From positions 1,612,001 through 1,676,000 of the forward strand of contig NZ_LT629777.1 of the NCBI RefSeq assembly GCF_900105475.1: 64,000 nt of DNA, given 5' to 3'. The notes beneath the pieces are model-generated. The model was given only the letters and a program-made list of their open reading frames with translations. It did not search any database and was not told where the DNA came from. The position numbers and the translations under genes were made by a program. Source of the DNA: Pseudomonas asplenii. Lineage in GTDB: Bacteria > Pseudomonadota > Gammaproteobacteria > Pseudomonadales > Pseudomonadaceae. Shown piece after piece: positions 38,011-58,233 of this stretch (within the stretch, counting starts at the first letter, position 1; every line of letters starts with the position of its first letter).

Positions 38011-38349
38011 TTAGACTGATATCTTATTGCCACTATTGCTCAGTGCGGGATCTTCCAGGTACGTGACCTGGGGATGGCGCGCGTCGCTATGGAAGCTGAT
38101 ACGCGGACCTCGAACCGTAATCAGGTTGGCGTCGACTTTTATGCAAAGTGTCTGGCCGCTCTTGAAGGTCAGGCGATGGACGTTCTCATTGTCTTCCTGG
38201 CGTATTTCATGACTGATGACATCCAGCAGGTTATTCAGTGCCAGGCGTGAACCGGGTTGATTGATGGTCAGGCAACTGATCCCGCTGTGATTGCCGAAAG
38301 ACCCGGAAGGCGGTTGGAAGAAACAATACTGATTCAGATCACGACTCAT
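38011..38349 (-). CDS. Hypothetical protein
   Basis: This 112-residue protein starts MSRDLNQYCFFQPPSGSF after GGAG. It has no signal peptide, membrane helix or recognised domain; alternating hydrophobic residues in the middle suggest beta structure. It stands alone between the lipid operon and the SPFH operon, in AT-richer DNA. Expression and function are unknown. Confidence 0.6.
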   Translation of the reverse strand: MSRDLNQYCFFQPPSGSFGNHSGISCLTINQPGSRLALNNLLDVISHEIRQEDNENVHRLTFKSGQTLCIKVDANLITVRGPRISFHSDARHPQVTYLEDPALSNSGNKISV

Positions 38350-39038
38350 GGCAGCTCCGTCGTTGGGGTGCGGGCTGAGTGTTGGCGATATTATGGTTCA
38401 CCAGCACGCACAATGGGGTGTCAAGTGTGTTTGCCGTTTGGCATATAGTTATAAATTATTGCAACTCATCGGTTTTACCTCATTGTTATCCACAATGGAC
38501 ATCGTGCCGGGATGTGCCGTGGATAATCGTTTGCAGGCTTGTGTTGCCGGGTCTCCGGGGTCTTCCGACGTTGCGGTTTTAGTGGGGTGGGGTATGAAAG
38601 TCCCGACAAATATCGTCCGGATGTTCGGATGTTAGTCACTGAGGATTGACCAATCAAGCTGCTCTCTTGTTGGATTTTGTTACATTGCGCTGGGCTTTAG
38701 TTTATAGGCTCGGTTTTATCTGTAGGACTTATATATTGTGAGTGTAAGTAATGTCTGGGGAGATGAATCAGTATTAAGGAAATTTCCTTTTTATGCGGGG
38801 TTCATCCGCTTCTGGACGATTCTCGTCATGGGGTTTCATTCATAACAGTGCTGGAGCACTACGGGATGGCGCAGGGCGCATAAAAACCGGTTCTTGGACG
38901 GAAAATTCATCTTTTCTGTTATAAGGTAACTAAATATTTCAAAGGTGCCTGCTGGCGCAGCGACCTGACGTCAGCGTCGGGTCGCCGGCTATTTGGACGA
39001 TGGATGACCTCGGTGCTGGCATCGGGTCTGGAGTGGAC
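38350..39038. other. AT-rich non-coding stretch before the SPFH operon
   Basis: No convincing gene is present. The region is poorer in GC than its surroundings. It has a DnaA-box sequence (38486-38494) and an inverted repeat GCGACC/GGTCGC (38960-38965 and 38980-38985) around TGACGTCA. Promoters for the flanking genes must lie here, but none is clear. Confidence 0.5.
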
Positions 39039-41000
39039 ATGCAAGTGGATCTTGAAGCATCGCGGGCCGGTTTGCAGGGCCTGCCGCGCTTCCAACGGGC
39101 GGGTGTGCAGGTCCGCCAACTGCGCCGCCTGAGCATGGGCCTGGCGGGACTGGCGCTCAGTGGCCTGGTGCTGGGGTTCTTTGTCGGGCTGTTTGCGCCG
39201 GTGTCGATCTGGCCGACATTGTTGAACAACAACGCGGCGGCCTTGCTGGTGCTGGTCGCGGCCTTGCAGTCGGCGGCCGGCGTGGCGCGCTGGCGCGAGC
39301 AGGCCAGCGCCCCCGCAGACGTTGCGCCTGGCGATGCTGCGGGCATGGCACCGATGGAGCCCCTGGGCGCCTACGAGCGCCTGCTCGTCCGCCTGGAGGG
39401 CCTGTGGCGCAACGCTTTGGCGCAGATCGGCGCGGCGACGTTGTGGCTGGCCGGTTGGGCCTTGTTGGCGCTGGTGAGTGTCGAACAGACCTGGAACCTG
39501 ACGCTGGCTGGCGCGAATATGGGCCTGAGCGGCTCCGTGGCGGCGGCCCTGGGGTTGCTGCTGGCGTTTGCCCTGCTGGTGCTGGAGCGCCAGTTTGCCC
39601 AGGCCCCTGCGGTTGAGTGGCCGGAAGCCGGGGCTCTGGCCCGGCTCGTCAGGGTGGCGATCGTCGTTCAGGTGCTCAGTGCCCTCTGCCTGTTGTTCAG
39701 CGGCCCGCAAAGCCTGTGGCCAGCCCGCCTGCTGACGCTGCTCGGGCTGTTGCCAGCACTGGTCGCGGCAGAGCTGCTGTTGCGGGCGCTATTGTCGCTG
39801 TTCAGCCCCCGGCGTGACAGCCTGGAACCGCGTCTGGTGGCAATCAGCTTCATTGCCGGCCTGCTGCGCTGGCCGCCACAACCGCTGCTGGCGTTGCAGG
39901 ACGAATTACATAACCGCTTCGGCATCGACCTGCGCCAGATCTGGGCTTTCAGCTATATGCGCCGGGCGTTCGCGCCAGTGCTGCTGGTGGTGCTGGCGGT
40001 GGGTTGGTTGTTGAGCGGGGTCAGTGAGGTACCACTGCAGGGACGGGGCATCTACGAACGTTTCGGCAAGCCGGTGGAGGTTTTCGGCCCCGGGTTGCAT
40101 GTTGGCCTGCCCTGGCCGTTGGGCCGGGTGCTGGCGGTGGAGAACGGTGTCGTGCATGAGTTGGCCACCAGCGTCGATGCCGCCGCTGGCGCCGAGCCCG
40201 AACCGGCCGAAGGTCTGCCACCGGCCAGCGCCAACCGTCTGTGGGACGCCAGTCACGTGAACGAAAAATCTCAGGTGATCGCCAGCAGCAGTGGCGACCG
40301 ACAGGGTTTCCAAGTGGTCAACATGGACGTGCGCTTCGTCTATCGCATCGGCCTGAGCGACCAGGCGGCGCTGGCCGCCACCTACAACAGTGCCGACGTT
40401 CCCACGCTGATCCGCAGCACTGCCAGCCGGGTGCTGGTGCATGATTTCGCCTCGCGGACCCTCGATGGCCTGCTCGGTGAGCAGCGCACGGCATTGGCCG
40501 AGGATATCGGTCGGGCGGTGCAGGCCGACCTGCAGCGCCTGGACAGCGGCGTGGAGATCCTCGCCACGGTGGTCGAGGCGATCCATCCGCCGGCGGGGGC
40601 GGCGAACGCCTATCACGCGGTGCAGGCGGCGCAGATCAGCGCCCAGGCATTGATTTCCCGCGAGCGCGGCGCCGCCAGCGAACAGGCCAACCAGGCGCAA
40701 CTGCAGGCCAGTGTCGTCCAGGACCAGGCCCTGGCCAGTGCCCAGGAGATACAGGCCGGTGCCCGTGCGGCGGACCTGCGCTTCAGCGCCGAACGCCAGG
40801 CTTATGCCCAGGCCGGCCGGGCCTTCGTGCTGGAGCAGTACCTGGCACAACTGAGCCAGGGGCTGGCCAGGGCCAAGTTGCTGGTGCTCGATCACCGTCT
40901 GGGCGGCAACAGTGCGCCCACCCTCGATCTGCGTTCATTCACGCTGCCGGCCGACCCGATGCCTGCGCGTAAAGCCGTTCAGCAAGGAGTCACCCCGTGA
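39039..41000 (+). CDS. SPFH/band-7 protein with a multi-helix membrane domain
   Basis: This 653-residue protein starts with a membrane domain of about six helices. A seventh helix (FAPVLLVVLAVGWLLSGV) leads into an SPFH (HflK/stomatin-type) domain containing GIYERFGKPVEVFGPGLHVGLPWP, followed by an Ala/Gln-rich coiled coil. Ordinary HflK has only one membrane helix. I prefer the ATG at 39039, 5 nt after GGAG; an in-frame ATG at 39000 is possible. It is the first gene of a four-gene operon and overlaps the next by GTGA. Confidence 0.85.
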   Translation: MQVDLEASRAGLQGLPRFQRAGVQVRQLRRLSMGLAGLALSGLVLGFFVGLFAPVSIWPTLLNNNAAALLVLVAALQSAAGVARWREQASAPADVAPGDAAGMAPMEPLGAYERLLVRLEGLWRNALAQIGAATLWLAGWALLALVSVEQTWNLTLAGANMGLSGSVAAALGLLLAFALLVLERQFAQAPAVEWPEAGALARLVRVAIVVQVLSALCLLFSGPQSLWPARLLTLLGLLPALVAAELLLRALLSLFSPRRDSLEPRLVAISFIAGLLRWPPQPLLALQDELHNRFGIDLRQIWAFSYMRRAFAPVLLVVLAVGWLLSGVSEVPLQGRGIYERFGKPVEVFGPGLHVGLPWPLGRVLAVENGVVHELATSVDAAAGAEPEPAEGLPPASANRLWDASHVNEKSQVIASSSGDRQGFQVVNMDVRFVYRIGLSDQAALAATYNSADVPTLIRSTASRVLVHDFASRTLDGLLGEQRTALAEDIGRAVQADLQRLDSGVEILATVVEAIHPPAGAANAYHAVQAAQISAQALISRERGAASEQANQAQLQASVVQDQALASAQEIQAGARAADLRFSAERQAYAQAGRAFVLEQYLAQLSQGLARAKLLVLDHRLGGNSAPTLDLRSFTLPADPMPARKAVQQGVTP

Positions 41001-42052
41001 GCCTGTCCCACTCCCATTCCCACGAGTCGCATGCTCATCACGATCATGCCGGTCACCCTCACGGGCATCACCATCACGGCCACCATCACCACGGTGATGC
41101 CGGCAGCGGCGGGCCCTTTCCGTGGCGCCGCATGGGCTGGGCGCTGCTGCTGATCCTGTTCGCGGTCGCCGCGGCGAGCCTGGTGCAGGTGCGTTCCGGC
41201 GAGGCCACGGTGATCACCCGTTTTGGCAACCCGTCGCGGGTGCTGCTCGAACCCGGCCTCGGCTGGCGCTGGCCGGCACCGTTCGAAGCGGCGATTCCGG
41301 TTGACCTGCGTCTGCGCACCACCTCCAGTGGCCTGCAGGATGTCGGAACCCGCGACGGCCTGCGGATCATCATCCAGGCCTACGTGGCCTGGCAGGTCCA
41401 GGGCGACCGGCAGAACGTCGAGCGCTTCATGCGTGCGGTGCAGAACCAGCCGGACGAAGCGGCGCGGCAGATCCGTACGTTCGTCGGCTCGGCACTGGAA
41501 ACCACTGCCGCCAGTTTCGACCTGTCGAGCCTGGTCAACACCGACGCCAGCCAGGTCCGCATTGCCGATTTCGAGGCGCAGTTGCGCCAGCAGATCGACC
41601 AGCAACTGCTGTCGACTTATGGTGTGCGGGTCTTGCAGGTCGGGATCGAGCGCCTGACGCTGCCTTCGGTGACGCTGACGGCGACGGTCGACCGGATGCG
41701 CGCGGAACGGGAAACCATCGCCACCGAGCGTACGGCGATCGGCAAGCGCGAGGCCGCGCAGATCCGCTCTGCCGCCGAGCGCGATGCGCGCATTTTGCAG
41801 GCCGAGGCGACGGTCAAGGCCGCCGATATCGAGGCGCAATCACGGGTCGAGGCGGCGCAGATCTATGGCCGGGCCTACGCTGGCTCGCCGCAGTTGTACA
41901 ACCTGCTGCGTTCGCTGGACACCCTTGGCACGATCGTCACGCCGGGCACCCGGTTGATCCTGCGCACCGACGCCGCGCCGTTCCGGGTGCTGGTCGATGG
42001 GCCGCCCACAGCGCTCGACAAGGCTGAAGGCAAGGCCGGGTCGCAACCATGA
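40997..42052 (+). CDS. HflC-like SPFH protein with a His-rich N-terminus
   Basis: This 351-residue protein begins with a cytoplasmic-type tail holding 17 His among the first 32 residues. One membrane helix follows (about 45-63), then an SPFH domain (ATVITRFGNPSRVLLEPGLGWRWPAP) and a long coiled coil with AERDARILQAEATVKAADIEAQ. The His tail strongly suggests Zn, Ni or Co binding. It starts at GTG 40997 and is coupled on both sides by 4-bp overlaps. HflC-like proteins normally form large membrane cages. Confidence 0.88.
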   Translation: MSLSHSHSHESHAHHDHAGHPHGHHHHGHHHHGDAGSGGPFPWRRMGWALLLILFAVAAASLVQVRSGEATVITRFGNPSRVLLEPGLGWRWPAPFEAAIPVDLRLRTTSSGLQDVGTRDGLRIIIQAYVAWQVQGDRQNVERFMRAVQNQPDEAARQIRTFVGSALETTAASFDLSSLVNTDASQVRIADFEAQLRQQIDQQLLSTYGVRVLQVGIERLTLPSVTLTATVDRMRAERETIATERTAIGKREAAQIRSAAERDARILQAEATVKAADIEAQSRVEAAQIYGRAYAGSPQLYNLLRSLDTLGTIVTPGTRLILRTDAAPFRVLVDGPPTALDKAEGKAGSQP

Positions 42053-43107
42053 GTGAGCACCCACAGCAACCGAGAGGCCTCGACAGCCCGTGGATCCAGG
42101 CAGGACGCCTGGCGTTTCTCGGCCTGTACGCGGTGACCGTGCTGGCGGCGCTGGCCTGGGCTTTTTCCAATGTCCGGCAGATCGACCCGCAGGAGCGTGC
42201 GGTGGTCCTGCGCCTCGGTGCGCTGGAGCGCATCCAGAATGCCGGGTTGCTGCTGGCCTGGCCGCGTCCGTTCGAACAGGTGGTGATCCTGCCGGCGGCC
42301 GACCGGGTGATCGAACGCCGCGTCGAGGGTCTGCTGCGCTCCGATGCCGCGTTGCAGGCTGATCGTCAGGCGACCCCGACGGTGCCGGTCACCGATGCCC
42401 TGGCCGGCTCCGGTTACCTGCTGACGGGCGACGCTGGCGTGGTGCAACTGGATGTCCGGGTGTTCTACAAGGTGACCGACCCCTATGCCTTTGTGTTGCA
42501 GGCCGACCACGTGCTGCCGGCTCTGGACCGGATCGTCACCCGCAGCGCGGTGGCCCTGACCGCTGCGCGGGACCTGGACACCATCCTGGTGGCCCGTCCC
42601 GAGCTGATCGGCAGCGACAGTCAGGCCGCCGAACGACGCGAGCGCCTGCGCGGCGATCTGCTGCAAGCGGTCAATCGGCGCCTGGCCGAGCTGGCGGCCA
42701 GCGGGCAGGGGATTGGTCTTGAAGTGGCGCGGGTCGATGTTCAGTCGAGCCTGCCGGGCCCTGCGGTGAACGCGTTCAATGCCGTGCTGACCGCCAGCCA
42801 GCAAGCCGACAAGGCCGTAGCCAACGCCCGTAACGAAGCGGCCAAGCTCAACCAGTCGGCGACCCAGGACGCCGACCGCCTGGTCCGGGTCGCCGAAGCC
42901 CAGGCCAGCGAGCGTCTGGCCAAGGCCCAGGCTGACACGGCGACGGTGGCAAGCCTCGCCAAGGCGCAACAGAACGGCAGCGATCCGGGCCTGTTGTTGC
43001 GGCTCTACCGCGAACGCCTGCCGAAGATTCTCCAACAGGCCGGGTCGGTGACCACGGTCGACCCTCGGGACGATTCCCGCCTGATCATCCAGGGAGCTGA
43101 ACAATGA
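42049..43107 (+). CDS. HflK-like SPFH protein
   Basis: This 352-residue protein has one N-terminal membrane helix (about residues 21-40) and an SPFH domain with DPQERAVVLRLGALERIQNAGLLLAWPRPFE. A coiled coil rich in Ala and Asn follows (ANARNEAAKLNQSATQDADRLVRVAEAQA). It pairs with the HflC-like protein before it, as HflK pairs with HflC. The 4-bp ATGA overlaps with both neighbours show tight coupling to the metal ATPase gene. Confidence 0.88.
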   Translation: MSEHPQQPRGLDSPWIQAGRLAFLGLYAVTVLAALAWAFSNVRQIDPQERAVVLRLGALERIQNAGLLLAWPRPFEQVVILPAADRVIERRVEGLLRSDAALQADRQATPTVPVTDALAGSGYLLTGDAGVVQLDVRVFYKVTDPYAFVLQADHVLPALDRIVTRSAVALTAARDLDTILVARPELIGSDSQAAERRERLRGDLLQAVNRRLAELAASGQGIGLEVARVDVQSSLPGPAVNAFNAVLTASQQADKAVANARNEAAKLNQSATQDADRLVRVAEAQASERLAKAQADTATVASLAKAQQNGSDPGLLLRLYRERLPKILQQAGSVTTVDPRDDSRLIIQGAEQ

Positions 43108-45080
43108 GTGCGACCCTCGCGGCCAATCCGCCGGCCAGCCTGCTCAGCAGCGCCGAACAACGCAACGCGGCCCGCCAACTGCTGCTGGCGATGCTCGCCC
43201 TCGGCTTGCTGGGGCTCGGCCTGGTATGGCGCTGGCTGGCGCCCGGGCAGGTCGGAGTCAGCCAGCTGTTGCTCGGTTTCGCCTCGATCCTGGTGGCGGT
43301 GCCGGTGATGCGCTCGGCCTGGTACAGCCTGCGTTATCCGAGCCTGCACGGCATTACCGACCAACTGATCGCCCTGGCGATGCTTGGCGCCTGGGCCACC
43401 GGCGACCTGCTGACTGCCGCGCTGCTGCCGATCATCATGATTTTCGGCCACGTGCTCGAGGAGCGCAGCGTCATCGGTTCCCAGGAAGCCATCGATGCCC
43501 TGGGCCGACTGACCCGCAGCCAGGCGCGGCAGGTACAGGCCGACGGCAGCGTGCTTGAGGTGGATAACAGCCGCCTCAAGGCCGGCGACCGGGTGGAAGT
43601 GCGCGCCGGTGACCGGGTCCCGGCCGACGGCGTGGTGCTGTCGGGCCAGGCGAGTCTCGACACTGCGCCGATCACTGGTGAGTCGGTACCGTTGGAGGCG
43701 AGTGTTGGCGTCCAGGTGTTCGGCGGGGCGATCAACCTCGACGGCCTGCTGCGCATCGAGGTGACCCGCACCGGCCATGAGTCGACCCTGGGCAAGGTGA
43801 TTGCGCTGATGCAGAGCGCCGAACGGGCGAAGCCGCCGATCACCCGCCTGCTGGAGCGTTATGCCGGGAGTTATCTGGTGCTGGTCCTGATGATCGCTGC
43901 GGTCACCTGGTTCATCACCCAGGATGCCCAGGCGATGCTGGCCGTACTGGTTGCGGCTTGTCCCTGTGCGCTGGTGCTGTCGGCGCCGGCCACGGCGATT
44001 GCCGGGATCGCCGTGGCGGCGCGGCATGGCATCCTGATTCGCAGCTCGGCGTTTCTCGAAGAGCTGGCCGACCTGACTTCGCTGGTGGTGGACAAGACCG
44101 GCACCCTGACCTACGGCAGCCTGCGTTTGCAGTCGCTGCAGACGACGGTCGAGGACCATGAACCATTGCTGCGCCTGGCGGCGAGTCTCGGATCGGCCAG
44201 CAGTCACCCGGTCAGCCGGGCGCTGGCCGGCCTGGTGGAGTCGGTCGAGCCTGTCGCCTTGAGCGAGGTGCAGGAGCGCCAGGGGTTGGGTGTGGTCGCC
44301 ACCACTGCCCAGGGGCAGGCCGCGTTGGGGCGGCCGGAGTTGTTCAGCCAACTGTCGATCGCCACCGCGCCGGTGCCCGCGCACGACGGGCCGATTGCCG
44401 GGCTGGCCCTCGACGGCGAGTTCCTCGGCTGGCTGTTGCTCGCCGACAGCACCAAACCCGAGGCCCGCCATGCTCTGGCCGAGCTGCGTGAGCTGGGCCT
44501 GGGCCGGCAGCTGCTGCTGACCGGCGACCGCCAGAGCGTGGCCGACAGCCTGGCCCGGGAGGTCGGTATCAGCGATGTCGCCGCCCAGGCGCTGCCCGAA
44601 GACAAGCTCAAGCGGGTGCTTGGCGAGATCGACAGCGGCTTTCGGCCGATGGTGGTGGGGGATGGCATCAACGACTCGCTGGCGCTCAAGGCCGGGGTGG
44701 TCGGCGTGGCGATGGGGGCTGGCGGGGCGGATATCGCCCTGGCCTCGGCCGACGTGGTGCTGATCGGCAGCGACCTGCGCCGCCTGGGCACCTGCGTGCG
44801 CCTGAGTCGCCAGTGCCGGCGGACCTTGCAGGTCAATGTGGTGATCGGTCTGGGCTGGACCCTGGCGATCGTCGCTGCGGCGGCTTTCGGTTGGCTGGGC
44901 GTGGCGGGGGCGATGATCGCGGCGCTGCTGCACAACCTCAGCACCTTGCTGGTACTGGGCAATGCGGGGCGGTTGCTGCGCTTCCAGGAGCCGTTGCTCA
45001 AGCTGCCGGAGTCATCCCCATCCTGTAGGAGCCGGCTTGCTGGCGATAACCATTATTCAGTCGACAACGTGGCTGGCTGA
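43104..45080 (+). CDS. P1B-type metal-transporting ATPase
   Basis: This 658-residue ATPase has about eight helices and no N-terminal metal-binding domain. Key motifs are TGES (191-194), CPC (286-288) in the transport helix, phosphorylated D330 in DKTGTLT, H368-P369 and GDGIND (519-524). The last helix has H610-N611-LST. The HP dipeptide and CPC make it a heavy-metal ATPase; the ion is not settled by the motifs. Residues 640-658 are encoded by a REP-like palindrome that carries the frame past the ancestral end. It is the last gene of the SPFH operon. Confidence 0.93.
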   Translation: MSATLAANPPASLLSSAEQRNAARQLLLAMLALGLLGLGLVWRWLAPGQVGVSQLLLGFASILVAVPVMRSAWYSLRYPSLHGITDQLIALAMLGAWATGDLLTAALLPIIMIFGHVLEERSVIGSQEAIDALGRLTRSQARQVQADGSVLEVDNSRLKAGDRVEVRAGDRVPADGVVLSGQASLDTAPITGESVPLEASVGVQVFGGAINLDGLLRIEVTRTGHESTLGKVIALMQSAERAKPPITRLLERYAGSYLVLVLMIAAVTWFITQDAQAMLAVLVAACPCALVLSAPATAIAGIAVAARHGILIRSSAFLEELADLTSLVVDKTGTLTYGSLRLQSLQTTVEDHEPLLRLAASLGSASSHPVSRALAGLVESVEPVALSEVQERQGLGVVATTAQGQAALGRPELFSQLSIATAPVPAHDGPIAGLALDGEFLGWLLLADSTKPEARHALAELRELGLGRQLLLTGDRQSVADSLAREVGISDVAAQALPEDKLKRVLGEIDSGFRPMVVGDGINDSLALKAGVVGVAMGAGGADIALASADVVLIGSDLRRLGTCVRLSRQCRRTLQVNVVIGLGWTLAIVAAAAFGWLGVAGAMIAALLHNLSTLLVLGNAGRLLRFQEPLLKLPESSPSCRSRLAGDNHYSVDNVAG

Positions 45081-45115
45081 TACATCGCTATCGCCAGCAA
45101 GCCGGCTCCTGCAGG
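45022..45115. repeat. REP-like palindrome (CCGGCTTGCTGGCGAT family)
   Basis: Arms of about 26 bp (45022-45047 and 45090-45115) are nearly perfectly complementary. The left part overlaps the 3' end of the ATPase gene. The same arms recur at 48547-48637. Confidence 0.93.
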
Positions 45116-45215
45116 CCTTTTCGCCTACAGGTTCGCATTTCTTGCAGGCCAGCAGGCGAACCTCATCAATCGGGTCTATCATCCCGATAGGATGACAGTT
45201 TTCACACATGGGCTA

Positions 45216-45246
45216 CCCTTTGTTCAGACGTCTGAAACAAGGGGGG
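45216..45246 (+). promoter_or_regulatory. Hairpin over the cfa ribosome-binding site
   Basis: Bases 45216-45227 pair with 45232-45243 in a 12-bp stem with two bulges, centred on the palindrome CAGACGTCTG (45225-45234). The 3' arm includes the first Gs of the GGGGGG Shine-Dalgarno run (45241-45246) before the ATG at 45254. It could restrict translation or serve as a protein operator in DNA. Confidence 0.6.
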
Positions 45247-45253
45247 ATTACTC

Positions 45254-46438
45254 ATGCTCGCGCAACTTCCACCGGCCTTACAGAATCTACAGCTACCGCT
45301 GCGTCTTAAACTCTGGGATGGCCATCAGTTCGACCTCGGGCCGCAACCTCGTATCACGATCATCGTGAAGGACCCACAACTCGTCGCGCAATTCAGCCAT
45401 CCGACCCTGGACCTGCTCGGCAGTGCCTTCGTCGAAGGCCAGCTGGAACTCGAAGGATCGGTCAGCGAAGTCGTGCGAATCTGCGATGAGTTGAGCCAGG
45501 CCCTGCTGAACGACGAAGACGACCACCAGGTGCCGCGCCAGTCCCACGACAAGGCCACCGACGCGGCGTCGATTTCCTACCACTACGACCTGTCCAACGC
45601 CTTCTACCAGCTCTGGCTGGACCGCGACATGGTCTACTCCTGCGCCTACTTCGAAACCGCCAACGCCAGCCTGGAGGCGGCCCAGCAAGCCAAGTTCCGC
45701 CACCTGTGCCGCAAGCTGCGCCTGCAGCCGGGCGACTATCTGCTGGACGTCGGCTGCGGCTGGGGTGGTCTGGCGCGCTTCGCCGCGCGCGAATTCGGGG
45801 CCAAGGTGTTTGGTATCACCTTGAGCAAGGAACAACTGGCGCTGGCGCGGGAACGGGTGGTCGCCGAAGGTCTGCAGGACCAGGTCGACCTGCAGTTGCT
45901 CGACTATCGCGACTTGCCGCAGGATGCTCGCTTCGACAAGGTGGTCAGTGTCGGCATGTTCGAACACGTCGGCCACGCGAATCTGCGGTCGTACAGCAAC
46001 ATCCTGTTCGGCGCGGTGCGCGAGGGTGGGCTGGTGCTGAACCACGGCATCACCGCCAAGCACACCGACGGGCGTCCGGTCGGGCGTGGGGCCGGGGACT
46101 TCATCGACCGCTACGTCTTTCCCAATGGCGAGCTGCCGCACCTGTCGATGATCTCGGCCGCCGTCAGCGAGGTCGGGCTGGAGGTGGTCGATGTCGAGAG
46201 CCTGCGCCTGCACTACGCCAAGACCCTGAACCAGTGGAGTCAGCGCCTGGAGAACAACCTGGACGCCGCTGCCCGGCTGGTGCCGGAAAAGGCCCTGCGG
46301 ATCTGGCGGCTGTACCTGGCCGGGTGTGCCTACGCGTTCGAGAAAGGCTGGATCAACCTGCATCAGATTCTCGCGGTGAAGCCGTTCGCCAATGGCAGCC
46401 ATGACCTGCCCTGGACCCGCGCCGACCTGTATCGCTGA
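45254..46438 (+). CDS. cfa: Cyclopropane-fatty-acyl-phospholipid synthase
   Basis: Cfa adds a methylene from S-adenosylmethionine across double bonds of membrane phospholipid chains. The 394-residue protein has an N-terminal lipid-binding domain and a methyltransferase domain with SYHYDLSNAFYQLWLD, the VGCGWGGLARFAA motif and SVGMFEHVGH with the bicarbonate-binding Glu. It is convergent with the cardiolipin synthase gene (2-bp gap). CTATCAT at 45176 resembles an RpoS-type -10, in line with stationary-phase control known for this gene. Confidence 0.95.
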   Translation: MLAQLPPALQNLQLPLRLKLWDGHQFDLGPQPRITIIVKDPQLVAQFSHPTLDLLGSAFVEGQLELEGSVSEVVRICDELSQALLNDEDDHQVPRQSHDKATDAASISYHYDLSNAFYQLWLDRDMVYSCAYFETANASLEAAQQAKFRHLCRKLRLQPGDYLLDVGCGWGGLARFAAREFGAKVFGITLSKEQLALARERVVAEGLQDQVDLQLLDYRDLPQDARFDKVVSVGMFEHVGHANLRSYSNILFGAVREGGLVLNHGITAKHTDGRPVGRGAGDFIDRYVFPNGELPHLSMISAAVSEVGLEVVDVESLRLHYAKTLNQWSQRLENNLDAAARLVPEKALRIWRLYLAGCAYAFEKGWINLHQILAVKPFANGSHDLPWTRADLYR

Positions 46439-48546: not shown

Positions 48547-48637
48547 CTTGTGGGAGCCGGCTTGCTGGCGATTACGATCTTTTAGCAACCTTCGCTGACT
48601 GATCCACCGCTATCGCCAGCAAGCCGGCTCCCACAGG
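48547..48637. repeat. REP-like palindrome (CCGGCTTGCTGGCGAT family)
   Basis: Arms cttgtgggagccggcttgct (from 48547) and a complementary arm ending at 48637 enclose about 38 bp. It sits in the convergent space between DUF3617 and the threonyl-tRNA synthetase gene. Confidence 0.93.
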
Positions 48638-48662: not shown

Positions 48663-50555
48663 TCAGGAAGAGAGGTTTTGCAGCAGGTCTTCGATATCCA
48701 TCGTTCCCAGGTCCTCCCCCGTGCGGCGGCGCACACTGACCACGCCCGCCGCCTTTTCCTTCTCGCCGACCACCAGCAGATACGGCACCTTCTGCAGGCT
48801 GTGCTCGCGAATCTTGTACCCGACCTTCTCGTTACGCAGGTCCGCCACCGCTCGCAGACCCTGGGCCTTGAGCTGCTGGGCAATGCTGCGGGCATAGTCG
48901 GCCTGGCCCTCGCTGATATTCAGTACCACCGCCTGGCACGGTGACAGCCACAGCGGCAGGGCGCCGCTGTAGTGCTCGATGAGGATACCGATGAAGCGCT
49001 CCAGCGAACCGAACAGCGCCCGATGCAGCATCACCGGTCGCTGGCGTTCGCCGTTTTCGCCGATGTAGCCGATATCGAAGCGCTCCGGCAGGTTGAGGTC
49101 GACCTGCAAGGTCCCGCATTGCCAGTCGCGGCCGATGGCGTCGCGCAGCACGAATTCCAGTTTCGGCCCGTAGAAGGCGCCTTCACCGGGATTGACCCGG
49201 TAATCGATGCCCATCCGGCCCAGGGCGCCGATCAAGGCGCCTTCGAGCTGGTCCCAGGTGTCGTCGCTGCCGATGCGGTTGAGGGGGCGGGTCGAGAGTT
49301 TCACCACGACCTCGTTGAAGCCGAATTCGCGATAGATATCGAACACCAGCGCCATCGCCGTTTCACATTCGGCCTGCATCTGCGCCGGCGTGCAGAAGAT
49401 ATGCGCGTCGTCCTGGGTGAAGTGGCGCACCCGCAGCAGCCCATGCAAGGCGCCGGACGGTTCGTAGCGGTGCACCTTGCCGAACTCGGCGATCCGCAGT
49501 GGCAGGTCGCGGTAGCTCTTGAGACCGTGGCCGAAGATCGACACCGCGCCCGGGCAGTTCATCGGTTTGAGGGCGAAAACCCGCTGGTCCTCGGTCGTGG
49601 TGGTGAACATGTGGTCACAGTAGTTCTGCCAGTGCCCGGAGGTTTCCCACAGACCGCGGTCCATCACGTCCGGGGTATTCACTTCGACATAGCCGGCCTG
49701 TTCCTGGCGCTGGCGCAGGTAGCTGATCAACTGCTGGAACAGCGTCCAGCCCTTGGCATGCCAGAACACCGAGCCCGGTGCGCAGTCGTCGAAGTGGAAC
49801 AGGTCCAGTTGCGTGCCGAGCTTGCGGTGATCGCGCTTGCCGGCTTCTTCCTGGCGGGTGAGGTAGGCGTCGAGGTCTTGGATGTTGGCCCAGCAGGTGC
49901 CATAGATCCGCTGCAGCGGCGCTTGGCTGGCGTCGCCGCGCCAGTAGGCACCGGCCACCTTGGTCAGCTTGAACGCCTTCAGGATGCCGGTCGACGGTAC
50001 GTGAGGGCCGCGACACAGGTCCTCGAAGTCGCCCTGGCGGTACAGTGACAGCGTTTCGCCTTCAGGAATGGCGTGGATCAGCTCGGCCTTGTAGTGCTCG
50101 CCCAGTCCCTCGAAATGGGCGATGGCTTCGTTGCGCGGCAGGGTGCGGCGGCGCATCGAGTGGTTGGTTGCGGCGAGGGCCTGCATCCGGCTCTCGATCA
50201 GCTCCAGATCCTTGGGGGTGAAGGGTCGCTCGTAGGCGAAGTCGTAGAAGAAGCCATCCTCGATCACCGGGCCGATAGTGACCTGGGCCGAGGGATAGAG
50301 CTGCTTGACCGCCATGGCCAGCAGGTGCGCGCAGGAGTGGCGCAGGATCTGCAGCCCTTCGTCGTCACGCGGGGTGACGAGAGTCACCGTCGCGTCCCGT
50401 TCGATGAGGGTTGTGCAGTCGACCAGGACGCCGTCGACCCAACCTGCCACTGTCGCGCGGGCCAGGCCGGCACCGATGCTGGCGGCCACTTCGAAGACCG
50501 AGAGCGGCTGGTCATACTCGCGTTGCGAGCCGTCGGGCAAAGTGATGCGGATCAT
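48663..50555 (-). CDS. thrS2: Threonyl-tRNA synthetase, second (zinc-starvation) copy
   Basis: This 630-residue synthetase has a TGS domain, an editing domain with H73, H77, C181 and H185, and a class II catalytic domain. The three zinc ligands of the E. coli enzyme are all present at identical positions (C334, H385, H511), so it is not a zinc-free version. It is the last gene of the seven-gene operon that starts at folE2. The copy status is inferred from context: the housekeeping thrS is normally next to infC. Confidence 0.93.
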
Positions 50556-50585
50556 CGATGAGGTCCTTGGTCGAATAGGGGCATA

Positions 50586-51923
50586 TCAGCGAAGAAACTG
50601 CAGGGGCAGGCCCTGGCAGCCGTCCTGAATCTGGCCGGCATGCCAGGCGATCTGCCCGGAGACCACTGTGGTGCCGACGTGATGACGGAAACTGCGTTCG
50701 GCGAAGGGCGTCCAGCCGCACTCATAGAGAATCCGTTCGCTGTTGACCGGCCTTCTCAGGGGCTGGCGATTGAGCAACACCAGGTCGGCCCAGTAACCCT
50801 CACGCAGATAACCGCGCTCGGCGATGGCGAACAGGTCGGCGACCCGGTGGCTGGTCTTGGCCACCAGCGTGGTCAGTGGCAGAACATGGTCCGCCACCAG
50901 TTCCATCAGTGCCGGCAGCGCGTGTTGTACCAGTGGCAGGCCGGAGGGGGCCTCTTCGTAGGGCCGCTGCTTTTCTTCCCAGGTATGCGGCGCGTGATCG
51001 CTGCCGATCACATCCAGTCGGTCGCTCAACAAGGCCTGGCGCAGGGCGTCGCGGTCCGAGCGTTGCTTGATCGCCGGGTTGCATTTGATCTGGTTGCCCA
51101 GGCGCGGGTAGTCGTTTTCATCGAACAGCAGGTGATGCAGGCAGACTTCGGCGCTGATGTGCTTTTCGCCGAGCGGTTTGTTTTCGAACAGTTCCAGTTC
51201 GCGCTCGGTGGTCAGGTGCAGCACATGCAGGCGGGTGCCATGCTTTTTCGCCAGTTCGACCGCCAGCGACGAGGAGCGGTAGCAGGCTTCGGCATTGCGG
51301 ATCAGCGGGTGGGCGGTCGGTGGAACCGTGCCACCCAACAGGTCCTTCAGATTCTTCAGGCGGGTGTCGATGGTCGGCGTGTGTTCGCAGTGGGCCAACA
51401 GGATGGTCGGCACTTCGGCGAACAGCCGCTCGAGGATGTGTGGGTCGTCCACCAGCATGTTGCCGGTGGAGGCGCCCATGAACACTTTGACTCCGGCCAC
51501 CTGGCGCGGATCGAGGGCCGCCACGGTGTCGAGGTTGTCGTTGCTGACCCCGAAGTGGAAAGCGTAGTTGGCCACCGAGGCGGTTGCCGCCCGGCGTTTC
51601 TTGTCGGCCAGAGCATCGAGGGTCAGGGTTGCCGGACGGGTGTTGGGCATGTCCATGTAGCTGGTGATGCCGCCGGCCACTGCGGCCCGCGACTCACTGT
51701 GGAAACTGCCCTTGGCCGGCGACCCCGGATCGCGGAAGTGCACCTGGTCGTCGATCATTCCCGGCAGCAGCCAGTCGCCAGCGGCGTCGATTTCCACGTC
51801 GGCGCTGGCGTTGCTGATCTCTGGGGCGATGGTGTCGATGCGGCCGTTGATCACCCGGATATCGGCGTCGAACTGACGGCCCTCGTTCACCACGCGGGCA
51901 TTGCGGATCAGCAGGCTGCTCAT
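50586..51923 (-). CDS. pyrC2: Dihydroorotase paralogue
   Basis: This 445-residue amidohydrolase is of the dihydroorotase type. The metal-site motif is DDQVHFRDPG, so the first His of the usual HxH is Q60. H62, carboxylatable K146, H178 and H181, H233 or H236, and D309 in GSDHAPH are present. It lies in the zinc-starvation operon, 2 bp before the carbonic anhydrase-like gene upstream and 30 bp from thrS2. It likely backs up pyrimidine synthesis when zinc is scarce. Confidence 0.88.
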   Translation of the reverse strand: MSSLLIRNARVVNEGRQFDADIRVINGRIDTIAPEISNASADVEIDAAGDWLLPGMIDDQVHFRDPGSPAKGSFHSESRAAVAGGITSYMDMPNTRPATLTLDALADKKRRAATASVANYAFHFGVSNDNLDTVAALDPRQVAGVKVFMGASTGNMLVDDPHILERLFAEVPTILLAHCEHTPTIDTRLKNLKDLLGGTVPPTAHPLIRNAEACYRSSSLAVELAKKHGTRLHVLHLTTERELELFENKPLGEKHISAEVCLHHLLFDENDYPRLGNQIKCNPAIKQRSDRDALRQALLSDRLDVIGSDHAPHTWEEKQRPYEEAPSGLPLVQHALPALMELVADHVLPLTTLVAKTSHRVADLFAIAERGYLREGYWADLVLLNRQPLRRPVNSERILYECGWTPFAERSFRHHVGTTVVSGQIAWHAGQIQDGCQGLPLQFLR

Positions 51924-51925
51924 GC

Positions 51926-52486
51926 TCAGAACTCGTTTTGCAGGGCTTTGTAGCCCCGCACCAGGTCGACGTTGGTGCGCGCCACGTCCTCGGAAAACTC
52001 CGAGGCGCTGACGCTGACCGGTGGGAATTGCGACAGGTCGGTGTTGGGACCGATACGGGTGGTGGAGGGCACGTAGAACCCCGGCGGCAGATCGCGACCG
52101 TCGACCACCGAGTTGTGCCGCACTACGCTGCCGTCGCCGACCGCGCAGTTGAACAGCACGCTGTTGAAGCCGATGAACACCCGATTACCGACCGTGCAGG
52201 GGCCATGGACGATCGAACGGTGGGCGATGGAGCTGAACTCGCCGATGGTCACCGCCGCACCGGACTTGGAGTGGATGACCACCCCGTCCTGGATGTTGGA
52301 GTTGGCGCCGATGATGATCGGGTCCATATCGCCGCGTTCGTTGACCTCGTCGGCACGGATCACCGCGTAGGGGCCGACGAAGACGTTTTCACCGATCACC
52401 ACCTTGCCGCAGATGATCGCGGTCTTGTCCACATAGGCGGATTCGGCGATCACCGGCAGGTCACCGGAAGGGTTCTTGCGAATCAT
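51926..52486 (-). CDS. Gamma-class carbonic anhydrase-like hexapeptide protein
   Basis: This 186-residue protein forms a left-handed beta-helix (repeats such as VVIGENVFVGPYAVIRAD and CTVGNRVFIGFNSVLFN). His residues in VVIHSKSG and SIAHRSIVHG match the three metal ligands of the gamma-carbonic anhydrase family. That family can use Fe or Co instead of Zn, which would suit this operon. Hydration of CO2 is inferred, not shown. Confidence 0.87.
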   Translation of the reverse strand: MIRKNPSGDLPVIAESAYVDKTAIICGKVVIGENVFVGPYAVIRADEVNERGDMDPIIIGANSNIQDGVVIHSKSGAAVTIGEFSSIAHRSIVHGPCTVGNRVFIGFNSVLFNCAVGDGSVVRHNSVVDGRDLPPGFYVPSTTRIGPNTDLSQFPPVSVSASEFSEDVARTNVDLVRGYKALQNEF

Positions 52487-52520
52487 GCTGGAGTCTCCCG
52501 AAGGGCCCTGTGGTGGGCGA

Positions 52521-53408
52521 TCACTGGCTCAAGGCGGCGTGCAGGGTGTTCATGTTGTATTCGAACAGGCCAAGGAAGGTGCTGGCCGGGCCTTCGGCGG
52601 CGAGGGCGTCGGAGTACAGCGTGCCGCCGATCTTCGCGCCGCTTTCGTCGGCGATCTGTTGCAGCAGGCGCGAGTCCTTGATGTTCTCCATGAACACGGC
52701 CTTGACCTTGTCCTTGCGGATCTGCTGGATCAGGCTGGCCACTTCGGCCGCCGACGGTTCACGCTCGGTGGACAGGCCCTGGGGCGCCATGAACTGGATG
52801 CCATAGGCCTGGCCCAGATAACCGAAGGCGTCATGGGAGGTGACGATACGGCGGTTGCCGGCCGGCAGGTTGCCGAGCTTGACCTTGGCTTCGGCCAGCA
52901 GGCGGTAGATCTGTTTCAGGTAGGCCTGGCTGTTGCGGGTGTAATCGGCCTTGTTGGCCGGGTCGACCTGAATCAGTGCCTTGGTGATGTTGTTCACATA
53001 CAGCTCGGCGTTTGCCAGGTTGTGCCAGGCGTGCGGATCGGGAACGGTTTCGCCGTCCTCTTCCATGGTGTGCGAGATCACGCCCTTGCTGGCGGTGACC
53101 ACCGGGGCCTTGGTTTCGGTACTGGTGACCAGGCGGTCGAGCCAGGGTTCGAACTCCAGGCCGTTCTTGACGATCAGCTTGGCCTTGAGCAGTGCTTGGG
53201 CGTCATCCGGGGTGGGTTCGTAGGTGTGGGCGTCGGCGTCCGGGCCGACCATCGCGGTGACCTGGATATGGTCGCCGCCGATCTGTTGGGTGATGTCCCT
53301 GAGAATACTGAAGCTTGCGACCACGGGCAGCTTGTCCGCCGCCTGGGCGCTGGACAGGGGCAACGACAAGGCCAGCATGGAGCTGAACAACACGAGTAAA
53401 GCGCGCAT
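52521..53408 (-). CDS. znuA: Zinc-type ABC transporter substrate-binding protein
   Basis: This cluster A-I periplasmic binding protein has 295 residues from ATG 53408. It has a signal peptide (ending SSAQA). Candidate metal ligands are the His in DADAHTYEP, the His in DPHAWHN, the His in TSHDAFGY and the Asp in YSDAL. The His-rich loop of E. coli ZnuA is absent. An upstream ATG at 53423 overlaps the permease stop by ATGA and may be used. It belongs to the seven-gene operon; zinc specificity is inferred from context. Confidence 0.9.
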   Translation of the reverse strand: MRALLVLFSSMLALSLPLSSAQAADKLPVVASFSILRDITQQIGGDHIQVTAMVGPDADAHTYEPTPDDAQALLKAKLIVKNGLEFEPWLDRLVTSTETKAPVVTASKGVISHTMEEDGETVPDPHAWHNLANAELYVNNITKALIQVDPANKADYTRNSQAYLKQIYRLLAEAKVKLGNLPAGNRRIVTSHDAFGYLGQAYGIQFMAPQGLSTEREPSAAEVASLIQQIRKDKVKAVFMENIKDSRLLQQIADESGAKIGGTLYSDALAAEGPASTFLGLFEYNMNTLHAALSQ

Positions 53409-53419
53409 CAGGTGACACC

Positions 53420-54286
53420 TCATTGGGATGGCAGGGGCGGGCGGCGCAGCAGACCGTGCACCGGACCGAAGACCACGGACAGCAGGTACAGGCAGCCGGC
53501 GACCAGCACGATGGCCGGGCCGCTGGGTTGCGAGTAGTAGAACGACAGCAATAATCCGGCGGCCACCGAGACGCAGCCGAGCAGCGCGGCGATCAGCATC
53601 AGTACCGGCAGGCGGCGGCTCCAGAAGCGTGAAGCGATCGCCGGTAGCATCATCAGGCCGACCACCATCAGGGCGCCGATGGCCTGGAAACCGATCACCA
53701 GGTTGAGCACCACCAGCGTCAGGAACACACCATGGGCCAGCGGGCCGAGGCGGCTGACGGTCTGCAGGAACAGCGGGTCGAGGGTGTCCAGCAGCAGTGG
53801 CCGGTAGATCGCCGCGAGCAGCACCAGGCTGATGCTGCAGACCCAGAGCATGCCGGTCAGGGTCGGCCCATCCACCGCCAGCGCTGAGCCGAACAGCAGG
53901 TGCAGCAGGTCCAGGCGCTTGCCGGCGATGCCGAGCAGCATCACGCCGCTGGCCAGCGAGATCGGATAGATCGCCGCCAGGCTGGCGTCCTCACGCAGGC
54001 CGGTTTTACGGGTGATCCAGGCCGAGAGGCCGGCCATGCCCATGCCGGCGCCGAGGCCGCCGAGGGTCAGTGCCGGCAGGCTCAGGCCGGCGATCCAGAA
54101 ACCGATGGCGGCACCGGGCAAGATGCCGTGGGCCACCGCGTCACCGATCAGGCTCATGCGCCGCAGAATCAGGAATACCCCCAGTGGCGCCGTGCTGCAG
54201 GCCAGGACCAGGCCACCGAGCAGGGCCCGGCGCATGAAGACGAAATCGTGGAACGGCTGCCACAGGTGCTGGACGAACATCAGCAT
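53420..54286 (-). CDS. znuB: Zinc-type ABC transporter permease
   Basis: This 288-residue ABC-3 family permease has about eight helices and the cytoplasmic coupling segment MSLIGDAVAHGILPG. It pairs with the ATPase upstream (1-bp overlap) and the binding protein downstream. It imports metal across the inner membrane; zinc is inferred from the Zur-type operator of the operon. Confidence 0.92.
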   Translation of the reverse strand: MLMFVQHLWQPFHDFVFMRRALLGGLVLACSTAPLGVFLILRRMSLIGDAVAHGILPGAAIGFWIAGLSLPALTLGGLGAGMGMAGLSAWITRKTGLREDASLAAIYPISLASGVMLLGIAGKRLDLLHLLFGSALAVDGPTLTGMLWVCSISLVLLAAIYRPLLLDTLDPLFLQTVSRLGPLAHGVFLTLVVLNLVIGFQAIGALMVVGLMMLPAIASRFWSRRLPVLMLIAALLGCVSVAAGLLLSFYYSQPSGPAIVLVAGCLYLLSVVFGPVHGLLRRPPLPSQ

Positions 54287-54954
54287 CAGGCCACCTGCGT
54301 GATCGGTTGTTGCACGATCAACTCGTGGCTCGGCGCCAGGACACAGCCACTGTCCTTGATCCGCAGGGCATCGGGGATGTGCAGGCGTACGGCGGCGAGG
54401 TCATGGCAGACCACCACCAGGGTCCGACCGGCCGCATGCCAGGCGTGGATATGTTTCCACAGCAGTGCCTGGCCTTCTTCGTCGAGAGCGGCGTGGGGCT
54501 CGTCGAGCAACAGTACGGGGGCTTCAGCCAGGCTCAGACGGGCGAGCAGCGCACGTTGCAGTTGGCCACCGGACAAGGCCATCAGTGGGCGCTGCTCCAA
54601 GCCTTCGAGATCCCAGTCGGCGATCACCGCCTGCAGGCGTTCGTTGCGTTGTTGCGGGGTCTGCTTGATCCCCCACAGGCCGGCCGCCACCAGCTCCTGC
54701 AGGCTGATGGGAAACTGCCGGTCGAGGTGTTGCTGTTGCGGCAGGAACGACAGGCCGCCACGGCGTGGAACGTCCAGATGGACCTTGCCGGCCAGCGGCT
54801 TCTGCAAGCCGGCGAGGACTTTCAGCAGGCTGCTCTTGCCGGTGCCGTTGGCGCCGATCACTGCGGTCAGGCTGCCGGCTGCCAGGTTGAAATCCACGGC
54901 GGGGGTCAGTGGTTGGCCCGGTGCGCCCCAGCGCAGGCCTTGGCAGCGGATCAT
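54286..54954 (-). CDS. znuC: Zinc-type ABC transporter ATP-binding protein
   Basis: This 222-residue ATPase has Walker A GANGTGKSS (about residues 34-42), the signature LSGGQLQRALLARL and Walker B LLLDEP. There is no C-terminal extension. It overlaps folE2 by 4 bp upstream and the permease gene by 1 bp downstream, so all three transport genes are translationally linked. Confidence 0.93.
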   Translation of the reverse strand: MIRCQGLRWGAPGQPLTPAVDFNLAAGSLTAVIGANGTGKSSLLKVLAGLQKPLAGKVHLDVPRRGGLSFLPQQQHLDRQFPISLQELVAAGLWGIKQTPQQRNERLQAVIADWDLEGLEQRPLMALSGGQLQRALLARLSLAEAPVLLLDEPHAALDEEGQALLWKHIHAWHAAGRTLVVVCHDLAAVRLHIPDALRIKDSGCVLAPSHELIVQQPITQVA

Positions 54955-55847
54955 GCCTGACTCCAGTTCCAGCGGCTTTCAGCCACGGCGTCATGGGCGT
55001 GCAGGCTTTCGGCATGCACTACCCGCAGGTGGAAACCCTGTACCGCGTCGGAATCCTTGAGCGCCGTGTTCAGGCGCCGTGCCGCGTCTTCGCAAAACAT
55101 CAGGTTCTGGCCGTTGGCGAGGGCGAAGGCTTGCTCGTCGGCACGTTTCACGGCGGTCTGTACGGCGGTGCCGAGGGCCGACTCGGCAGCATTGATCAGG
55201 TCCTCGAAGGCAAACCTGTACGTTGTTTCATCAAGTCGGATGTGCAGGTGTGCCATGCTGCGCTGGCTGTGGGGCGTAGCGACGATGCCTTGGCTGCTAC
55301 CGAGCCAGTTGAAGACCTGGTCATGTTCCAGCGGTTGGTTGGCGAAGTCTTTCTTGAACTGTTGCTGGATCAGTTGCCGGGCGAGTGCCGCCGAGCAGGG
55401 GCAGGTGGATGAGTAGGCCACGTCAATTTTCAGTTCCACGTGGAACACTCCGCCTTTCAGTTCGGCTAACACACTGACGGGATAGGTTTTCCAGCCGGCC
55501 AACGGGCTGACCAATGCCGGACGCTTGAGTAGCAGTTCGGTATGCAGACGCAGGTAGGCGTTGTGGGAGAGACCGTCGTGACTGTCGAGGAACTGTTGCA
55601 GCACGTCGCGCAGCAGCGTCGGCGTCAGGTCCTGTTGCTCCAGTCGCTCCAGGGCCAGGTACAGCCGTGACATGTGAATGCCCCGTGCTTCGCCATCGTT
55701 GAGACTGACCCCTGCGTCGGCTTTGGCGCTGAGGCGCTGGCCTTCGATGGTCACGGGCAGAGCAATGCCGCACATGCCAACCCACTCAAGGGACAAGGCT
55801 TGGCGGGATGACTGCGCGGCGATATCCGGCAGCGTCAACGCATTCAT
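54951..55847 (-). CDS. folE2: GTP cyclohydrolase IB (FolE2)
   Basis: FolE2 makes 7,8-dihydroneopterin triphosphate for folate with Fe or Mn, replacing zinc-dependent FolE. The protein starts MNALTLPDIAAQ at 55847 (298 residues). It contains the catalytic Cys region STCPCSAALARQ and SHNAYLRLH. It is the first gene of the seven-gene minus-strand operon, directly behind the Zur-type palindrome at 55880-55892. A near-perfect parS site lies at 55432-55447. Confidence 0.95.
   Translation of the reverse strand: MNALTLPDIAAQSSRQALSLEWVGMCGIALPVTIEGQRLSAKADAGVSLNDGEARGIHMSRLYLALERLEQQDLTPTLLRDVLQQFLDSHDGLSHNAYLRLHTELLLKRPALVSPLAGWKTYPVSVLAELKGGVFHVELKIDVAYSSTCPCSAALARQLIQQQFKKDFANQPLEHDQVFNWLGSSQGIVATPHSQRSMAHLHIRLDETTYRFAFEDLINAAESALGTAVQTAVKRADEQAFALANGQNLMFCEDAARRLNTALKDSDAVQGFHLRVVHAESLHAHDAVAESRWNWSQA
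55432..55447. other. Near-perfect parS site inside folE2
   Basis: AGTTCCACGTGGAACA differs from the parS 16-mer only at the first base; the 14-bp core is perfect. Confidence 0.75.
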
Positions 55848-55879
55848 GAACAGGCCCATCGTTTGAAATAAAATGACAT

Positions 55880-55892
55880 GTTATATTATAAC
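55880..55892. promoter_or_regulatory. Zur-type operator between folE2 and the amidase gene
   Basis: GTTATATTATAAC is a perfect palindrome with the form of the Zur box core. It lies 33 bp before folE2 and 52 bp before the divergent amidase gene, so one site may control both. Its exact reverse complement occurs at 57759-57771. Confidence 0.88.
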
Positions 55893-55943
55893 GATTAGCT
55901 AGACGAAGCCTTTTTTTCAGGGCTCTACACCGCCATATCGAGC

Positions 55944-57206: not shown

Positions 57207-57233
57207 CGCCTCTTTGGGGTGAGTGCAGACTCT

Positions 57234-57264
57234 CTTTGTGGTGAATAGGCTCGCCACAACAAAG
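57234..57264. terminator. Hairpin between convergent genes
   Basis: CTTTG and TGGTGA on the left pair with TCGCCA and CAAAG on the right, with a small bulge. It may end the amidase and the convergent small gene. Confidence 0.45.
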
Positions 57265-57301
57265 TGTCTCCTCACTTCATCGGGCAGCCTCAGGCCTTTG
57301 C

Positions 57302-57685: not shown

Positions 57686-57758
57686 TCTCAAGGCAGGGTC
57701 GGGTTCAGCATCACCCCCTTCGTCGCTGGGAGCAAGGGGGGATTGGCTAAAATGCACT

Positions 57759-57771: not shown

Positions 57772-57801
57772 ATTAAATAAATCCCCGGCAGCTGACTCAC
57801 C

Positions 57802-58206: not shown

Positions 58207-58233
58207 CTCGGCCGACCTGATGAGGAACCCATC

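Follow-up and report, generated by a model that had tools for sequence, protein, structure and literature searches.

A conserved operon of three SPFH genes and an HmtA-type P1B ATPase gene in Pseudomonas asplenii: a possible zinc-acquisition platform

Why should three genes for SPFH (Band 7) membrane proteins be joined in one operon to the gene for a P1B-type metal ATPase? The question is raised by a locus of Pseudomonas asplenii, which we analysed within a stretch of 64,000 nucleotides (contig NZ_LT629777.1, positions 1,612,001 to 1,676,000), hereafter the window. An initial annotation had proposed that the SPFH proteins form a membrane scaffold that gathers metal through a His-rich tail and passes it to the ATPase, by analogy with the mycobacterial PacL1-CtpC pair. 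We find the four genes to be one inseparable module in the samples examined, and the operon to be probably under Zur control, as judged from the placement and conservation of a candidate box in the sequence. The best explanation that we can offer, to which we give a probability of a little under one half (about 0.48), is a zinc-acquisition platform under the control of Zur, with an HmtA-type pump that would be held by a mixed SPFH scaffold.

The features on which the argument turns are the following, where TM stands for transmembrane, AF2 for AlphaFold2 and CDF for cation diffusion facilitator:

38918 to 38930, no strand assigned: Zur-type box GTTATAAGGTAAC, 108 bp 5' of the SPFH1 start codon, agreeing with 9 of 10 consensus positions.
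39039 to 41000, forward strand: SPFH1, 653 residues, with an N-terminal six-helix domain followed by a seventh TM helix, the SPFH domain and a long helical C-terminus (Pfam Band_7, E 7e-21; AF2 models; homologues aligned down to 42% identity).
39090 to 39815, forward strand: CDF-like six-helix domain of SPFH1, residues 18-259.
40997 to 42052, forward strand: SPFH2, HflC-like, 351 residues, GTG start, with a His-rich N-terminal tail (Band_7, E 5e-31; TIGR01932, 95.8 bits; nearest solved structure HflC, 7vhp).
40997 to 41119, forward strand: the His-rich tail at the SPFH2 N-terminus (41 residues, 17 of them His), predicted to lie in the cytosol.
42049 to 43107, forward strand: SPFH3, HflK-like, 352 residues (Band_7, E 9e-20; TIGR01933, 99.9 bits).
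43104 to 45080, forward strand: HmtA-type P1B ATPase, 658 residues, with CPC and, near the C-terminus, HNLST (TIGR01525, 521.6 bits).

The four genes are consecutive and form a single operon, with a 4-bp overlap at each of the three junctions (GTGA, ATGA and ATGA). This direct reading of the junctions, together with the domain matches, bears out the gene content and linkage first described for the locus. We placed the start of SPFH1 at the ATG at 39039 and not at 39000, as its homologues begin with MRVDL there. The PF01145 (SPFH/Band 7) scores of SPFH1, SPFH2 and SPFH3 (75.4, 108.5 and 71.9 bits) all exceed the gathering cut-off of 23.6, and the ATPase, in which the E1-E2_ATPase and Hydrolase domains were also matched, lies well above the TIGR01525 cut-off of 346.25. 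A scan of 38300-45300, uninformative in itself, found no sigma-70-like promoter.

Does the association of these genes extend beyond a single genome? Among 149 genomes of the genus, our own included, SPFH1 was found in 88 and the ATPase in the same 88, and neither occurred alone, at E-value thresholds of 1e-20 and 1e-150, respectively. The latter threshold is not decisive, since the weakest ATPase match of the genus set, which is cut by a contig end, has an E-value of 2.8e-246. SPFH1 is present in 11 of 119 genomes of a family sample (3 of 19 genera). A wider sample of the class, 368 other genomes, yielded neither SPFH1 (E 1e-15) nor the ATPase (E 1e-100). When 378 genomes of the phylum were searched with a profile, 11 matches came up, that of our own genome among them. 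Three lie beyond the family, two in a second family of the class and the third in a different class; at each of these three loci the four genes keep their order and SPFH2 has a His-rich tail, although the SPFH2 frame is interrupted by a stop in one of them (L230). Relatives of SPFH1 were found by protein search in Entomomonas, Utexia and Sodalis. For closer comparison we assembled 93 loci, namely, the window, 87 other loci of the genus and five from other genera of the family, and the four genes are colinear in every one of them, with SPFH1 appearing as two matches in G034 and the ATPase cut by a contig end in L062 and L104. When starts were chosen by script, -1 overlaps were present between SPFH1 and SPFH2 in 57 of these loci, between SPFH2 and SPFH3 in 80, and between SPFH3 and the ATPase in 84. 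Another collection of 389 loci, from which 80 named loci were kept and which partly overlaps the 93-locus set, gave colinearity in 79 cases, the exception being a 3.3-kb contig with SPFH1 alone. None of the 80 is titled P. aeruginosa; among the colinear ones is a locus of P. chlororaphis (L180). Since the order is kept in 93 of 93, 79 of 80 and three of three extra-family loci, SPFH1-3 and the ATPase move as a unit. The earlier view of the four genes as one functional unit thus gains support from their never being found apart, and homologues in which they are routinely separate, which would have spoken against it, are not what these samples contain. In single genomes an SPFH gene is interrupted (SPFH2 in L230, SPFH1 in G034/L069), through decay or assembly error.

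In gene order and in the light of published data, the operon corresponds to the hmtA locus of P. aeruginosa, PA2439-PA2435, in which an HflK-like first gene is followed on the same strand by two HflC/HflK-type genes and then by the P1B ATPase gene. At the level of gene lists this locus is already known in P. aeruginosa, as the hmtA locus. A list covering PA2434-PA2439 includes hmtA (PA2435), two genes of the HflC and one of the HflK family, and a weak Zur site (Pederick 2015, PMC4542158), and in a znuA mutant PA2435 rose 5.6-fold and PA2437-39 rose 9.0- to 14.4-fold (PMC4542158). Zur has been shown to bind in vitro, in a zinc-dependent manner, at the promoter of PA2439, with which the locus begins (Ducret 2021, PMC8531726), and in a 2025 proteome PA2435 and PA2437-39 were higher under zinc depletion, PA2438 significantly so in one method (PMC11761036). 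A paper on the three SPFH proteins of the locus as paFlo5-7 has an excerpted text that mentions neither the ATPase nor hmtA, and reports the trio in two of 10 other reference Pseudomonas species (PMC13086221), fewer than our sample suggests. In two of our loci (L132 and L133) a gap of 607 and 641 bp, respectively, separates SPFH3 from the ATPase, with an open frame in it whose small product has a signal-like N-terminus; the frame sits at the place of PA2436 of P. aeruginosa, and the window has no such gap.

The window operon shares a further trait with the hmtA locus, a conserved Zur-type box 5' of the first gene. Within the 6.5-Mb genome there are four matches to GTTATNNNRTAAC, of which the window holds three. 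A genome-wide count of the box (3+3) is not above that of a reversed-pattern control (4+4), so that only placement and conservation carry weight. Scored against a 10-position consensus, which was written after viewing the window's own boxes, a box with a score of at least 8 lies upstream of SPFH1 in 92 of the 93 loci, versus 6 of 91 downstream controls and 10.3% of shuffles, and a box with a score of 9 in 81 of the 93, versus 2 of 91 controls and 0.7% of shuffles. The sole miss is Entomomonas. Two gammaproteobacterial loci from outside the family have boxes scoring 9 and 10 at -61, and the locus from another class has one scoring 8. As the initial annotation had pointed out, there is also a zinc-starvation cluster nearby:

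48663 to 59445, no strand assigned: zinc-starvation cluster (NCBIfam/Pfam), comprising genes for a ThrS paralogue, a dihydroorotase, a gamma-carbonic anhydrase-like protein, an Azt/Znu-type ATP-binding cassette (ABC) transporter, FolE2, an AmiC-like amidase and ZigA.

Its genes, from the thrS paralogue to zigA, are indeed present, and it contains two perfect boxes (55880 and 57759), of which one falls between folE2 and the gene for the amidase and the other precedes zigA by about 460 bp. The suspected link to zinc is supported. Among the 80 named loci, 47 have at least one zinc-cluster gene at a distance of no more than 9 kb, and 30 do when loci with AmiC only are left out.

These results bear directly on the efflux or resistance setting that the comparison with PacL1-CtpC implies, whereby an SPFH microdomain would collect toxic metal through the His tail and hand it to an exporting ATPase. 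The zinc motif of PacL1, DLHDHDH (PMC9374683, PMC13043812), is similar in composition to the HDHDH-type SPFH2 tails, in each system a P1B ATPase is partnered by a membrane protein with a tail, and the lack of repression of hmtA by added zinc (PMC8531726) would suit such a role. However, a Zur-type box is present in 92 of the 93 loci, the P. aeruginosa locus goes up in zinc depletion (PMC4542158, PMC11761036), and the genome has another ATPase that reads as ZntA/CadA-like. That setting is probably wrong, and we regard an efflux platform as very improbable; in view of the box and the published depletion response, an efflux operon was rejected as the principal interpretation.

Are the SPFH proteins, then, a variant of the HflK-HflC pair that acts on the FtsH protease? 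The nearest families and the nearest solved structures of SPFH2 and SPFH3 are HflC and HflK. The curated cut-offs are, however, not reached, SPFH1 and SPFH3 scoring 57.9 and 99.9 bits against 159.4 for HflK (TIGR01933) and SPFH2 95.8 bits against 134.4 for HflC (TIGR01932). The genome holds three further SPFH places, two of which are adjacent and, by our reading of their sequences, make up an ordinary hflK/hflC pair. N-acetylcysteine (NAC), a zinc-chelating drug, raises PA2437-39 (PA14_33110/33080/33070), which the authors call FtsH modulators of the Zur regulon, FtsH being a zinc protease (PMC9431628). The SPFH trio might accordingly modulate FtsH in zinc starvation while the ATPase shares no more than the promoter and the chromosomal place, an account that the family assignments favour, as does the NAC response list, in which the three SPFH genes appear and hmtA is unnamed in the excerpted text (PMC9431628). 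Yet SPFH1 and the ATPase are never separate in the 149 genus genomes or the three extra-family loci, for which a shared promoter alone is insufficient, and the scores below the hflK/hflC cut-offs, in a genome that keeps an hflKC-like pair besides, do not fit well with it either. We consider FtsH control unlikely, albeit with a real chance of being right. It was raised in our estimate, and the zinc-acquisition platform lowered, because hmtA is unnamed in the NAC response and because a review excepts hmtA from Zur binding.

What kind of scaffold could these proteins build? SPFH2 has its 41-residue tail with 17 His, then RR and a single TM helix, and SPFH3 also has one TM helix. SPFH1 is multi-helix, as had been noted from the start, although the number of helices is to be corrected to seven predicted TM helices, and its Lys and Arg residues are confined to the segments that would be cytosolic under an N-in topology. 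Because the charge pattern fits N-in, the SPFH domains of all three proteins are predicted to be periplasmic; the SPFH domain in the full-length SPFH1 AF2 model is of low confidence. That the SPFH proteins serve as a scaffold, as first proposed, is supported as likely. In the AF2 model the N-terminal domain of SPFH1 can be likened to the six-helix fold of CDF transporters, with a Foldseek E-value of only 0.2. PF01545 (Cation_efflux) found no match at E up to 10 in eight of eight SPFH1 N-domains, and HHalign of the N-domain gave a probability of 0.15 against a CDF profile that is itself weak, being built from the genome's own two CDFs only. CDF transporters carry Asp/His metal ligands in helices 2 and 5. 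In the corresponding SPFH1 residues, 57-90 and 197-219, placed by helix order, no H, C, D, E or M is conserved in at least 97% of 90 sequences. With Pfam and HHalign both negative, CDF homology by sequence was rejected.

The His-rich tail had been assigned to the HflC-like protein, and this is where we find it, at the N-terminus of SPFH2, in all 93 loci, with 8 to 20 His (mean 40% His) and a sequence that otherwise varies freely. In contrast, the entire open frames of the genome's three other SPFH proteins contain 5, 2 and 2 His. The N-terminal tail of the window's ATPase has no His at all and no match to a metal-binding domain, so that the description of the ATPase as lacking its own metal-binding domain holds in the window; it fails as a general rule, as 17 of the 93 ATPases have at least five His in this tail, 20 have one to four and 56 have none. 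Some SPFH2 or ATPase N-terminal tails (L062-L068, L229 and L230) have Cys beside His, and these lineages may have another metal preference.

Which way does the pump work, and on what? CPC and DKTGT are present in all 93 ATPase orthologues and the HNxST pattern in 91, the two exceptions (L062 and L104) being frames cut by contig ends. The closest solved structure is 7qbz, which we take to be the P1B-4 pump sCoaT, and the GHxLE motif is common to both. The P1B-4 class is described as having SPC, HEGxT and no classical metal-binding domain (PMC8880997); neither SPC nor HEGxT is found in the orthologues, which have CPC and HNxST in their place. The curated ZntA model (NF033775) gives 270.6 against a cut-off of 1240. 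A second P1B ATPase of the genome (L008, contig 1993742-1998406), whose N-terminal region is long and rich in His and Asp and whose last helices contain Lys and Asp, is a probable ZntA/CadA-type exporter by its sequence. The idea of HmtA as an importer reportedly originates with Lewinson in 2009. Two reviews report import of zinc and copper by HmtA (PMC8456098, PMC10393844), its overexpression raising both metals in the cell (PMC10393844). Export is the usual polarity of P1B pumps (PMC10393844), and with that polarity the cytosolic His tails could gather scarce zinc or copper, which the pump would load into a periplasmic SPFH cage for exported metalloenzymes such as the co-clustered amidase. 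The charge pattern, with tails cytosolic and SPFH domains periplasmic, suits this arrangement, as do the AmiC-like amidase of the cluster, between whose gene and folE2 a perfect box lies, and the AmiA of the like P. aeruginosa cluster, called strictly zinc-dependent (PMC4542158). However, the reported rise of cell zinc and copper on HmtA overexpression argues the other way, and zinc export would be costly to starved cells; we hold such outward metallation to be quite unlikely.

We thus return to the zinc-acquisition platform and outline how it might work. In zinc scarcity, Zur would leave the promoter box, and the four membrane proteins would be made together from the overlapping genes. In the inner membrane the SPFH trio could build a mixed ring or cage resembling that of HflK/HflC, to which SPFH1 would contribute a CDF-like six-helix domain devoid of conserved CDF metal ligands. 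The HmtA-type ATPase would sit in or against this scaffold and move zinc, possibly copper, most likely inward, the direction being the least certain step. The His-rich tails, borne by SPFH2 in every locus examined and also by the ATPase in some lineages, would crowd at the cytosolic mouth, where, by binding metal, they might buffer it locally or pass it on. A bolder form, which we consider improbable but give some share of our belief, is that of a caged metal pump, in which a mixed SPFH ring, one subunit having a degenerate CDF-type (zinc-transporter-fold) membrane domain, encloses the HmtA-type P1B ATPase, and a closed periplasmic chamber opposite a dense ring of His tails lets scarce zinc cross without becoming free.

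Several observations weigh against the zinc-acquisition platform. Orthology to PA2435 is drawn from gene order and published work. In P. aeruginosa, hmtA mRNA is constantly low and is not repressed by added zinc (PMC8531726), a review (PMC10393844) makes hmtA an exception among the zinc-uptake genes that Zur binds, contrary to the PA2439 gel shift (PMC8531726), the rise of PA2435 protein in zinc depletion is not significant (p 0.052 and 0.121; PMC11761036), and PA2435 goes unnamed in the excerpts of the NAC paper that has PA2437-39 in its response list (PMC9431628). Import by a P1B pump is unusual, and the review asks for confirmation (PMC10393844). Joint deletion of paFlo5-7 caused no growth defect in LB (PMC13086221), a medium in which zinc was probably not limiting. 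To these observations belong the Foldseek, HHalign and Pfam results on the CDF-like fold given above. The His contents of the SPFH2 and ATPase tails correlate in raw counts (Spearman -0.35) but not after correction for kinship (r -0.07, p 0.51), and compensation between the two tails was dropped after this loss under independent contrasts. Finally, the genomes are related, the conservation counts are not independent, and co-inheritance is no proof of contact.

Few bacterial SPFH proteins have a known client. The present locus links three to a single metal pump in many Pseudomonas species and beyond, so that what an SPFH assembly does for a given membrane protein can be tested directly, and the atypical look of HmtA in earlier work might become easier to explain. 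If the caged pump were true, SPFH assemblies would be dedicated transporter cages and not protease cages only. Among the main texts of the open-licence papers listed, as excerpted, we found no treatment of the SPFH proteins and HmtA as one complex, nor the inseparable four-gene module, the SPFH2 tail kept throughout or the CDF-like domain on SPFH1.

The 3' end of the operon overlaps a further feature:

45028 to 45109, no strand assigned: inverted pair of repetitive extragenic palindromic (REP)-type elements at the end of the operon; the two copies, 45028-45045 and 45092-45109, are exact and lie on opposite strands.

We presume this 18-bp inverted element to be of the REP type. The ATPase frame passes into it over the last ~18 residues; the end of the gene overlaps this first pair, and the product is longer than in many relatives. 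A second inverted pair lies at 48553-48631, and the window contains four exact and two near copies of the element. A gene for a CfaB-type cyclopropane fatty acid synthase follows 3' of the operon at 45254-46438, and CfaB is found within the fetched downstream stretch in 58 of the 80 named loci. In nine of these 58 (L190, L191, L197, L200, L202, L207, L211, L214 and L215) it lies more than 1 kb past the ATPase match, and an extra gene may have been inserted after the operon there. A membrane-lipid enzyme adjoining a membrane scaffold may or may not have a meaning for the operon.

How does this operon compare with known systems? It is like P. aeruginosa PA2439-PA2434, whose SPFH genes are those of paFlo5-7 (PA14_33070/33080/33110), in gene order and, given the Zur binding at the first gene and the zinc-depletion response there, in its Zur-type box, but in P. 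aeruginosa a gene number, PA2436, comes in between. Like the E. coli HflK-HflC cage around FtsH, whose proteins are the nearest solved structures, SPFH2 and SPFH3 have an SPFH domain after one TM helix; unlike it, the operon's proteins fall below the hflK/hflC cut-offs, and the operon has a third member with six extra TM helices, a His tail on SPFH2 and an ATPase gene as partner. The ATPase shares with sCoaT and ZntA the overall pump and with sCoaT the lack of a classical metal-binding domain, but has CPC for SPC and HNxST for HEGxT, and it differs from ZntA (4umv, P1B-2) in having, by alignment, Thr and His at the positions of the lysine and aspartate of the last ZntA helices (residues named in PMC8880997). 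Compared with the CDF transporters YiiP and ZnT, the SPFH1 domain has no sequence similarity that we could find and no conserved acidic residue or His in helices 2 and 5, and it runs into a seventh helix and an SPFH domain. In PacL1-CtpC, too, a single operon encodes a P1B ATPase and a membrane protein with a His/Asp tail, and the pair embodies the idea of a scaffold and metallochaperone; on the other hand, PacL1 is a DUF1490 protein that is flotillin-independent and operates when zinc is in excess, and for CtpC an N-terminal metal-binding domain is described (PMC9374683, PMC13043812). DUF1490 had no match in a Pfam scan of the four operon products at E 0.001, and the window has instead three SPFH proteins and a promoter box of the zinc-starvation type. 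For a tailed scaffold with a P1B pump, PacL1-CtpC is nonetheless the nearest working analogy.

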